64,000 nucleotides of DNA from assembly GCA_026129865.1 (NCBI GenBank), contig JAHCHG010000001.1:248001-312000 (forward strand), read 5' to 3'. This DNA is from Pyrinomonadaceae bacterium (GTDB lineage: Bacteria > Acidobacteriota > Blastocatellia > Pyrinomonadales > Pyrinomonadaceae). Within the stretch, counting starts at the first letter, position 1, and every line of letters begins with the position of its first letter. Shown piece by piece: positions 46,865 to 50,530 of the stretch. The notes under the pieces were generated by a model. It had not been told where the DNA came from and searched no databases. It worked only from the letters and a program-made list of their open reading frames with translations. The translations under genes and the position numbers were made by a program.

Positions 46865-47419
46865 TCAGCGAATAAAATGAAAGGTTCGATTTCCCGCTCT
46901 CAGCCAAACGGCGAACGTTCTTCTGAGCGCAGGCTCAGAAGCTAACGGATCTTTCGATCGCTCGCGAATGTCGTATTTCAGCTGTGCGGCGACGATCCGC
47001 CTTTCGAAATTATGAAACTCCAGCCTGCATCTTTCGAATTTTGCAAGGTCTTTGACCCAGGGTTCGATTTCGCTGTTCGATTCAAGAAATTCTGAGAATT
47101 CCAGCGCATCCTGCAAATGTTTTTTTACCTGATCAGGGATGAAAGTATTTGAGAAAACCTTAAAATGCGTCCTAAAATCGTGCTTCAGCTCGCGCGCTGT
47201 GAGATAAAGCAGACGTTCAACCTCATGAAGCCGCTTAAAATAAAGCGATTCGGCAAAACACTCGATTTCCGTTTCAATGATCGATAAAAGTTCTCTTATT
47301 TCGATCTCCGAAAGCTGATTTGCGCTTCCCGTAAATGCGGGATCTTTGATGAACGACTTACGCAGCGTGTCATCGGTGTAAAGCTTTGCAAGAAATTTTT
47401 GTTGTTCGATCAAACCCAT
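46865..47419 (-). CDS. Partner protein of the DUF692/MNIO operon (SCO6045-like)
   Basis: 184-residue, mostly helical protein. QQKFLAKLYTDDTLRKSFIKDP at the start (in part), then FKRLHEVERLLYLTARELKHDF, DALEFSEFLE and EPWVKDLAKFERCRLEF. Pattern and position recall the SCO6045-like proteins next to DUF692 genes in actinomycetes, and functionally the DUF2063/MbnC-type partners that bind the substrate for MNIO enzymes. Family assignment is from memory of the pattern. It starts nine bases after the MNIO stop and is the last gene of the operon. Confidence 0.6.
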   Translation of the reverse strand: MGLIEQQKFLAKLYTDDTLRKSFIKDPAFTGSANQLSEIEIRELLSIIETEIECFAESLYFKRLHEVERLLYLTARELKHDFRTHFKVFSNTFIPDQVKKHLQDALEFSEFLESNSEIEPWVKDLAKFERCRLEFHNFERRIVAAQLKYDIRERSKDPLASEPALRRTFAVWLRAGNRTFHFIR

Positions 47420-47428
47420 TTTAGCCGA

Positions 47429-48256
47429 TCAATTAGTCTGCATGATCGTTCGTGCTTGTCTTAGTTCATTCACGATCTCATCAAACGGCGGGAAATTTCC
47501 ATCTCGTTCGAGAACTGCGCCTTTAAGCTCTGTTCGTTTACAGACTTCGCGGAAAACTTCCCAGATCTCTTCTTCAGTTTTGTCCGAGTGCGCGTCGATC
47601 AATCTCTTTCCATTCCGGTGAGAACCGACAAAATGAACCTGTACCACCGATTCCGTCGGAATTCCGTCCAAAAAACGCCGCCAATCGAATGCGAAATTTT
47701 GCGAATTTATATACAGATTCGTTACATCGAGAAGCAATCCGCAGCCGGTTTCCGACACGATCCTTGTCAAAAATTCGGCTTCATCCATCTCCGACGAAGG
47801 AAATCGGACCAAATATGTAATATTTTCCAGGATCAGCGGCGTTTCGATCACTCTTTGGACCTTTTTTACGTTCGCAGCAACAACTGCGACCGCTTCTCTG
47901 GTAAACGGGAGCGGGGCGAGATGTCCGATGTTGGTTCCGCCCGCGCGTGTAAAGCAAATATGATCGCTAAACCACTCGGGTTGAACAAATTCGACCAGTT
48001 CGGCAAATTTTTCGAGATATTCTTCATCGATTCCCTCTGCGCTGCCGAGCGAAAGATCCAGCCCGTGGGGAATGAGTTCGAAATTTTCGTTCAAAAGCTC
48101 AAGTTCTTTTTGTTTTGCCTCGTTTGCGTCGAAGTAATGATCGGCGGTAATTTCTAGAAAATCGATCTCTGTTCTATTCAGAAAAATGTCGGAACGAAAA
48201 GGTTCACGAAAACCCAATCCGACGCCCAAAGTTTTCGATTGAAGCAGAGTCGACAT
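47429..48256 (-). CDS. DUF692 multinuclear non-heme iron oxidative enzyme (MNIO)
   Basis: A 275-residue TIM-barrel enzyme of the MbnB/BufB family, whose members modify Cys or Asp residues in ribosomal peptides or proteins. GVGLGFRE, DFLEITADHYFD, PHGLDLSLGSA (His64), EWFSDHICFT (Asp98, His99), LENITY (Glu145), LLDVTNLYINSQN (Asp177), VHFVGSH (His208), DAHSDKT (Asp221, His223) and VLERDGNFP (Glu250) give the full set of iron-ligand candidates. Start ATG 48256 overlaps the stop of the upstream gene by one base (TAATG), meaning tight translational coupling. An upstream Arg-rich in-frame stretch is the Cys-tail coding region read in another frame and is not part of this protein. Confidence 0.88.
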   Translation of the reverse strand: MSTLLQSKTLGVGLGFREPFRSDIFLNRTEIDFLEITADHYFDANEAKQKELELLNENFELIPHGLDLSLGSAEGIDEEYLEKFAELVEFVQPEWFSDHICFTRAGGTNIGHLAPLPFTREAVAVVAANVKKVQRVIETPLILENITYLVRFPSSEMDEAEFLTRIVSETGCGLLLDVTNLYINSQNFAFDWRRFLDGIPTESVVQVHFVGSHRNGKRLIDAHSDKTEEEIWEVFREVCKRTELKGAVLERDGNFPPFDEIVNELRQARTIMQTN

Positions 48257-49251
48257 TAACTGCCGCACCCTCCGCATCCGCCGCCGCAGCCGCTTCCGCA
48301 GCCTGAACTGCACGAGCTTCCGCCGCTGCAGCTGCCGGCGTCCGAACAGCTTCCGCACGACGCTCCGCACGAACTCGCGCTAACTGCCTGTGATCTTTCA
48401 AACGCTTTGTTGTAACTGTCGTACATAGTTCCGGCGAGTATCGATCCGCCGAAAACTCCGACGCTTAACAGCAGCGGATCGACCCCGGCAAATGTCGTTT
48501 GCGCCGAAGGCATCTGTTGACCAACTGCGGCGCTTTCACGTGTGGCTCTGACTTTTAACTCGCCAAATGCAAGCTGCAGGCGTTCAAGGTAGGCATTTCC
48601 GAGTTTAGTCATCCGCGGCAGTTTTGAAACGTAGCGCGCGGCAATGACACCGATGACGCCCAATATGACTAAGAATGTAATATTGAAACGACCGTTCATA
48701 AGCGCAGCGATCATCTTGTAACCACCGGCAGCGGCGATCGAAAGAATGCCGATCCATTTGAACATCGAAAAACCGGCTGCCGATTCGTCGCTAGTTAAAA
48801 GCTGTCTTTGCTCAAGCGATGTCGCGTAAACATCCGCAAAGCTTTTTAGCTGAACGACCAATCCGCTTTTCCCAAAGATGTCTTTCGCATTTCTGGTTTC
48901 GCCGAACCAGTCAAGAGTTATCTTTTCGATGTTTCGCAGATTTCCCGCGACCTGATCTTTTGAGCGCGAGATAAAACTGTCTTTACCTGAATTTGAAACT
49001 TCGAGGACCTTGTTTTGAACAAGACTAAAAACTACCGATCGAGCCAATTCGTTTATCCCGCCGCGTAAAAACGCAATTTCGTAAGGATCGATCTTATGCG
49101 GGATCGCCGGCGACGGCAGACGGTCTGTCCGGTCAATCAGTCGTTTAGCGATCGCCAATACGATAACGACACCTAGAATAAAAACCGCATAGACCGCCAA
49201 AAAATACGGTCCGTACATTTGAGCGATCGGGTTTTCAAATAATAGATCCAT
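48256..49251 (-). CDS. Membrane protein with Cys/Gly-rich C-terminal tail (TIGR04222-like)
   Basis: 331 residues: N-terminal membrane helix (about 15-35), a soluble part (PYEIAFLRGGINELARSVVF in part), two central hydrophobic helices (about 165-205), and a C-terminal tail. The last 39 residues hold nine Cys separated by Gly and Ser only (ending CGGGCGGCGS), and I see no Cys elsewhere in the protein. The architecture fits the TIGR04222 family, often found next to DUF692 genes. The tail is the natural candidate substrate of the adjacent MNIO enzyme, as an immobilised, membrane-tethered target; this is inference. Confidence 0.75.
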   Translation of the reverse strand: MDLLFENPIAQMYGPYFLAVYAVFILGVVIVLAIAKRLIDRTDRLPSPAIPHKIDPYEIAFLRGGINELARSVVFSLVQNKVLEVSNSGKDSFISRSKDQVAGNLRNIEKITLDWFGETRNAKDIFGKSGLVVQLKSFADVYATSLEQRQLLTSDESAAGFSMFKWIGILSIAAAGGYKMIAALMNGRFNITFLVILGVIGVIAARYVSKLPRMTKLGNAYLERLQLAFGELKVRATRESAAVGQQMPSAQTTFAGVDPLLLSVGVFGGSILAGTMYDSYNKAFERSQAVSASSCGASCGSCSDAGSCSGGSSCSSGCGSGCGGGCGGCGS

Positions 49252-49304
49252 TGCGCTTCTTCCTCCCGGCAGAAGAATTCTAAGTTATTTCGCCGGATTT
49301 TTCT

Positions 49305-49349
49305 AAAAAAAAGCGGCGCCTGAAGTAAATACAAAAACTTCGGCGCCGC
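49305..49349 (-). terminator. Terminator after the second CAP-domain gene
   Basis: On the - strand GCGGCGCCGAAGT pairs with ACTTCAGGCGCCGC (one bulged base), followed by eight T. It isolates the CAP gene from the MNIO operon downstream, so that operon needs its own promoter in the roughly 50 bp before 49251 or relies on readthrough. Confidence 0.88.
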
Positions 49350-49381
49350 ACTACGTTAAATTTACGTTAGATCCTTAATAA

Positions 49382-50071: not shown

Positions 50072-50530
50072 TTACGGTATTTTTGCTGCTTCATTTTTTG
50101 ACCATTCACAGACAGTTTTTATTTCCTGTTCCGACATGTTCGCGTCCCAATGCAGCCATAGGTACTGATAATGAGGCATTTCCCGCGATTCGATCTCCTG
50201 GCAGATCTCTTCCAGTTTACGGGATTTTTTTTCAGGCGAAAACGCCGCCCATTTTGAAAAATTCATCTCATCGCGACCGGCGTTTACGTGATCTACAATT
50301 CCCCACGAGAGCGGGGCTATGTTCGAATACCAGATCCAATTTGTTTCATTTGAATGGCAATCGTAACAAGACCGCCGGAGAATTTCGTGTACATTTTGAG
50401 GAATTTGCATCTGCGATTCCAGCGTTTCGGCAGCGACCACCGGGGGATTTGTCCTTGAAGGTCGGTAAAATTGAATGGCGATAAATGCGACCGCCATTAT
50501 GATCAATACGATTTTGAGAGCTTTTTTCAT
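50072..50530 (-). CDS. Heme-binding-domain protein with CxxCH
   Basis: 152 residues. One N-terminal helix (about 5-22) and a periplasmic domain with CYDCHSNETNWIWYSNIAPLSW (in part), a c-type heme site, followed by WAAFSPEKKSRKLEEIC and EMPHYQYLWLHWDANMS. Matches the haem-bd (PF14376-like) family. The Met of EMPHY is a possible axial ligand. Electron-transfer role likely, partner unknown. Confidence 0.85.
   Translation of the reverse strand: MKKALKIVLIIMAVAFIAIQFYRPSRTNPPVVAAETLESQMQIPQNVHEILRRSCYDCHSNETNWIWYSNIAPLSWGIVDHVNAGRDEMNFSKWAAFSPEKKSRKLEEICQEIESREMPHYQYLWLHWDANMSEQEIKTVCEWSKNEAAKIP

Follow-up and report, generated by a model that had tools for sequence, protein, structure and literature searches.

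A Pyrinomonadaceae genome (from a soil-type bacterium of the Acidobacteriota) carries a short operon of three genes, which encode a TIGR04222-domain membrane protein with a cysteine-rich C-terminal tail, an MNIO (DUF692) enzyme and a partner protein. We think it fairly probable that this operon makes a membrane-tethered, RiPP-like product, in which the MNIO and its partner would oxidise cysteines of the tail to yield a metal-binding tail. The window that we analysed is a 64,000-nucleotide stretch of this genome, and all positions refer to it.

The trio falls into the TIGR04222–MNIO–PME-type 2 class that Antoine et al. described by genome mining in 2025 (PMC12452194), for which the tail was proposed as the substrate and the product was not characterised. 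As that class requires, a TIGR04222 gene with C-proximal cysteines precedes the MNIO gene; the published loci and the trio also have in common the three families, their order, a Cys/Ser/Gly tail, the lack of a signal peptide and a TglI-like partner without a DUF2063 Pfam match. A preliminary description of this DNA had pointed to a similar trio from actinomycetes with a product not yet described, which agrees with the published class. Because the class was described in 2025 and the literature that we searched held no experimental paper on it, we regard the trio as a member of an already known, uncharacterised class. The main text of the survey (PMC12452194) does not name Acidobacteriota, whereas the trio described here comes from that phylum.

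Operon layout

All three open reading frames lie on the minus strand, tightly packed and in the order first described: membrane protein (49251-48256), MNIO (48256-47429) and partner (47419-46865). The ATG of the MNIO gene shares one base with the TAA of the membrane-protein gene (...AGTTAATGTCG...), and nine bases separate the MNIO stop from the start of the partner. A peptide deformylase gene follows 44 bases downstream of the trio. The 130-base gap on the upstream side is taken up by an intrinsic-terminator-like hairpin and U-run of the upstream CAP gene (49305-49350, minus strand), which sets the trio apart from that gene, and by a strong, purine-rich ribosome-binding site, GGGAGGAAG, ahead of the ATG (49256-49266, minus strand); both were recognised by reading the sequence. 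Because the gaps around and within the trio are only 0, 9, 44 and 130 bases, and the largest is filled in this way, no separate short precursor gene fits, as had been suspected, and we rejected a hidden short precursor.

A Haem_bd (PF14376) protein is encoded at 50072-50530 (minus strand), one gene further upstream than the CAP gene, and is not clearly linked to the trio; the broken operon of locus L012 (see below) also has a similar haem-type CxxCH protein encoded nearby.

The membrane protein and its tail

The membrane protein (331 amino acids; 48256-49251, minus strand) matches TIGR04222.1 with 83.1 bits against a cut-off of 43, the family that had been suggested for it, and scores weakly against DUF2207_C (32.2 bits, under the cut-off of 33). 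All nine of its cysteines lie in a Cys/Gly/Ser tail that spans residues 289-331 (48259-48387, minus strand), at positions 295, 299, 302, 308, 314, 318, 322, 326 and 329. The tail consists of a Ser-Cys part, SSCGASCGSCSDAGSCSGGSSCSSG, of the kind that is associated with an MNIO, and a generic end, CGSGCGGGCGGCGS. Residues 291-331 are disordered in the AlphaFold model (pLDDT <50), and the protein has neither a cleavable leader nor a signal peptide. A fold search with the membrane-protein model, which is weak (pLDDT 68), returned no match. We rejected a viral or plasmid origin, as the protein has no relatives in the viral contigs or plasmids searched.

A dG scan, with the coefficients of a published predictor and three control segments that gave sensible values, predicts three membrane segments and a marginal fourth directly before the tail. 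Segment 1 covers residues 16-39 (49135-49206, minus strand; dG -3.8 kcal/mol), segment 2 residues 161-185 (48697-48771, minus strand; dG +1.3, negative in most relatives), segment 3 residues 188-208 (48628-48690, minus strand; dG -1.2) and the marginal hydrophobic segment residues 260-277 (48421-48474, minus strand; dG +1.4, with a family median of +1.45 kcal/mol). In counts of Lys plus Arg across 52 relatives, the stretch ahead of segment 1 has 0.75, the ends of the large domain have 1.9-2.2 per 15 residues, the loop that joins segments 2 and 3 has 0.8, the loop after segment 3 has 3.5 and 2.2, and the part beyond segment 4 has 1.4. By the positive-inside rule, this bias places the large soluble domain and the third loop in the cytosol, and we therefore consider that the soluble domain is probably cytosolic and not periplasmic; the 2025 survey (PMC12452194), by contrast, describes large periplasmic domains. 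The published class is also given an extracytosolic tail, whereas the segment ahead of the tail is marginal here: the side on which the tail lies would be set by the fourth segment, and the tail would be outside only if that segment inserts. If it does, modification of the tail must come before or during insertion.

The MNIO enzyme

The DUF692 assignment on which the preliminary description depended is borne out by a PF05114 match of 300 bits (gathering score 25, E 1.7e-89) for the 275-residue enzyme (47429-48256, minus strand). Every ligand motif of the solved MNIOs is kept in the alignment, consistent with the full metal-ligand set claimed earlier: PHG 63-65, SDH 97-99, EN 144-145, DVTN 177-180, H208, DAH 221-223 and ERD 250-252. 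The ligands predicted by alignment with 3bww, TglH (8hci) and MbnB (7dz9) are H64, D98/H99, E144/N145, D177/N180, H208, D221/H223 and E250. This enzyme is the only MNIO of the genome, and the nearest loci by enzyme are in Pyrinomonadaceae MAGs (65-70% identity).

Ranked by curated profiles, the enzyme is nearest to BufB (255 bits), followed by HvfB (219), ChrH (75) and MbnB (65). It does not reach the equivalog cut-offs of BufB (NF050167; 255.1 versus 310) or HvfB (NF003818; 219 versus 360), and in a tree of MNIOs the TIGR04222-linked enzymes split from the bufferin-type enzymes with 100% SH-aLRT support; a single MNIO from a Streptomyces plasmid, on a long branch, groups on the TIGR04222-linked side. 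The bufferin and oxazolin systems (BufABC, HvfABC) thus resemble the trio in their enzyme profiles and in the action of an MNIO and a partner on repeated cysteines, but differ in their small precursors, which bear a Sec signal peptide and motifs of the EGKCG type, in their DUF2063 partner and in the clade of their enzymes.

The partner protein

The third gene (46865-47419, minus strand) had been described as a helical protein of 184 residues that starts nine bases on. Length and spacing hold, but the protein is not purely helical: the AlphaFold2 model (pLDDT 86) has helices over residues 1-137 and a small strand-rich part at residues 142-183. It matches no Pfam family above cut-off, and the label ‘SCO6045-like’ corresponds to no Pfam or NCBIfam match. 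A Foldseek search with the model gave two significant matches, both to TglI of the TglHI complex (8hci_A, E 5.1e-5; 8hi7_A, E 7.5e-5; probability 1.00), with MbnC next (E 1.6). A PDB sequence search with the partner alone returned nothing meaningful, so that the relation to TglI comes from the fold search only. The modelled TglI fold and the lack of a DUF2063 signature assign the partner to PME-type 2.

The TglHI system of the 3-thiaglutamate pathway (8hci/8hi7) is thus related to the trio in partner fold, and its MNIO is homologous (E 5.6e-25). Its substrate TglA, however, is a soluble carrier peptide with a single C-terminal cysteine, whereas the tail cysteines of the trio are repeated and mostly internal. 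This difference, together with a profile ranking that is nearest to BufB and HvfB and far from ChrH and MbnB, makes it unlikely that the tail is modified by another MNIO chemistry, such as methanobactin-like oxazolone/thioamide pairs, TglHI-like excision of the Cys beta-carbon or oxidation of neighbouring Ser, Gly or Asp. Such chemistry would nonetheless fit with TglI, not HvfC, as the closest solved partner, with enzyme scores under the BufB and HvfB cut-offs and with the action of MNIOs on Cys, Asp, Asn and Phe (PMC12452194).

The best-conserved stretch of the partner is its first ~55-70 residues, within which a core module (residues 7-59; 47243-47401, minus strand) resembles NHLP/LigA-type RiPP leader domains. 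The Os1348/NHLP-clan model NF038399 matches 17 of 22 partner homologues (best E 5.5e-9), and the partner of the window scores 19.9 bits (E ~6e-4; 5.8e-4), which is under the curated cut-off of 40 bits. Searched against the PDB, a partner profile hits the nitrile hydratase alpha subunit (6.8e-4); the LigA-type leader of the borosin precursor SonA also comes up, but below significance. On this basis, the resemblance of the core to a RiPP-leader-type domain is suggestive, and we do not claim membership of the NHLP/Os1348 clan. The likeness to NHLP/Os1348/LigA-type leaders, including that of SonA, covers the first ~55 residues of the partner, and the module differs from them in having no core peptide attached and in being part of a distinct protein or joined to the enzyme. 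In four Acidobacteriota loci (L112, L113, L115 and L119), the partner open reading frame is only ~70-110 residues long and is essentially the core module; in one genome (G076), a natural fusion joins the module, by a Pro-rich linker, to the C terminus of the MNIO. Neither NHLP nor LigA appears in the 2025 survey (PMC12452194).

Recurrence and tail composition

The three genes occur together again in Pyrinomonadaceae, in other Acidobacteriota and in loci of Cyanobacteriota and Actinomycetota; because these loci are both syntenic and non-syntenic and span several phyla, we do not attribute the arrangement to chance. TIGR04222 proteins were searched for in 40 relatives and 396 Acidobacteriota genomes, and further in 291 genomes from the phylum of an Obscuribacterales MAG (Cyanobacteriota) and 397 from that of an Ectothiorhodospiraceae MAG (Pseudomonadota); MNIOs were searched for within the TIGR04222-positive genomes, and Actinomycetota are represented by a few loci from a plasmid collection.

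Tails with an adjacent MNIO have 5-12 cysteines (at least five in 25/25), and those without have 0-7 (at least five in 5/24; Fisher p 2e-9, kinship ignored). Two or more Ser-flanked cysteines occur in 23 of the 25 MNIO-adjacent tails versus 4 of the 24 others, again with kinship ignored in the p-values. A terminal CGGGCGG/CGGCG motif is found in both sets (24/25 and 15/24), which suggests that this motif is generic and that the Ser-flanked cysteines go with the enzyme. In a tree built without the tail, there are five well-supported independent pairs, about 3.5 of which change in the expected direction and 0.1 in the opposite one; after this correction the association points in the right direction but is not significant, with too few independent pairs (sign test, median p 0.25). 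Distances among TIGR04222 proteins and among MNIOs correlate (Mantel r 0.86, p 1e-4), partly through shared ancestry. The association of cysteine number with an adjacent MNIO and this correlation support the earlier proposal that the tail is the likely MNIO target, and from them we infer its role as a substrate.

A Cys tail is not strictly bound to an MNIO, and we rejected such a rule: several TIGR04222 proteins with a Cys tail come from genomes in which we detected no MNIO, including four with 6-7 tail cysteines (G421, G560, G646 and G092), so that the tail must have some MNIO-independent use. These genomes, the CGGGCGG-type ends of 15 of the 24 TIGR04222 proteins without an adjacent MNIO and the loose association also seen in the 2025 survey (PMC12452194) would be expected if the tail stayed unmodified, as a thiol metal ligand, a disulfide cross-linker or a sorting tail, while the MNIO acted on another protein or peptide. 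We judge this distinctly improbable, given that both the number of cysteines and the Ser-flanked cysteines increase with MNIO adjacency and that the operon offers no other candidate substrate.

Still less credible, and in our view very improbable, is a role for the TIGR04222 protein as exporter, receptor or membrane scaffold of an MNIO-modified peptide encoded elsewhere. The protein has a soluble domain and three or four membrane segments, which would suit such a part, as would the position of the MNIO gene before the TIGR04222 gene in an actinomycete locus (L049) and the reversed gene order in more than 10% of published cases (PMC12452194); yet the loci that we read have no conserved small Cys gene beside the trio, and the tail itself varies with the presence of the MNIO.

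In genome G005 (L012/L091), the TIGR04222 gene stops short of segment 4, neither the tail nor an MNIO is present, and an orphaned partner lies behind a truncated copy of the zinc-ribbon gene known from L016 and L017. The locus looks as if a single deletion had taken out tail and enzyme together, which we count in favour of the tail as substrate, and misassembly is possible because this is a MAG-like draft genome. In two other loci (L016:5862-6368 and L017:5840-6364), a gene for a zinc-ribbon protein with two membrane segments lies between MNIO and partner, and a different small gene (~134 amino acids) holds that position in L014.

Other neighbourhoods vary too. In several Acidobacteriota (L114, L119, L120 and L121), the gene immediately ahead of the TIGR04222 gene is nucleotidyltransferase-like (240-263 amino acids; weak PF01909); such a gene also adjoins the TIGR04222 gene in L021, and a similar one is kept beside the TIGR04222 gene of G092 though the MNIO is missing. 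The Obscuribacterales pair of TIGR04222 and MNIO genes (L122/L019) is followed by no recognisable partner gene. Nonomuraea gerenzanensis (L047:3974-7516) has two tandem TIGR04222 genes, then one MNIO and a partner-like open reading frame, none of which is annotated in the PLSDB gene table. In G162 (L029:82-3290), a TIGR04222-like membrane protein, which at 41 bits narrowly misses the cut-off, ends in a CHSACHSAC... repeat, and its gene is followed directly by one for a radical SAM enzyme with AhbD/PqqE/StsB-like scores and an N-terminal extension that is PqqD-like by eye; this locus is possibly a parallel system, in which another class of RiPP enzyme serves a membrane-protein tail.

Proposed mechanism

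In the reading that we favour, the MNIO and its TglI-like partner would act as a complex in the cytosol, and a multi-iron centre would use O2 to oxidise cysteines of the disordered tail, most probably those of the Ser-flanked array, while the membrane domain and the cytosolic soluble domain would hold the tail near the enzyme. The natural MNIO-module fusion of G076 also speaks for this reading. Gene identities, layout and recurrence, the partner fold and the covariation of cysteine number with the MNIO were computed from the sequences, and we infer from them the substrate, its chemistry, the side of the tail and the metal role. HvfB with HvfC carries out a four-electron oxidation of Cys to 5-thiooxazole, and the mixed-valent di-iron centre of HvfB forms only in the presence of the partner (PMC13419390); bufferins are a further precedent for turning Cys into 5-thiooxazole. 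By this analogy, and because of the nearest enzyme profiles, 5-thiooxazole-type rings would be the likeliest product, through a four-electron oxidation of about -4.03 Da per Cys. The tail would be modified while still in the cytosol, before segment 4 inserts or as it does so. Once finished, it would stay at the membrane as a polymer that binds copper or another metal, probably on the outer face by way of the marginal fourth segment.

A fuller version of this mechanism is more tentative, and we consider it less likely than not. The MNIO would mature a whole membrane protein that has no leader or signal peptide; the partner core would be an NHLP/LigA-type leader domain that works in trans and can be as short as ~70-110 residues, with one case of fusion to the enzyme; and a generic Gly/Cys tail would become a heterocyclised, metal-binding brush. 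What we would add to the published class is the distinction between a Ser-Cys array and a generic tail end, the apparent leader-type core of the partner, the natural fusion, and a large domain that is probably cytosolic.

Implications

The trio is compact, with three genes in one short operon, and thus easy to test, and the minimal and fused partners are handy constructs. If the tail is modified, the targets of MNIOs would include whole membrane proteins besides small peptides, and RiPP chemistry would reach tethered protein surfaces. Such a modification would also suggest a widespread device for handling metals in the cell envelope.
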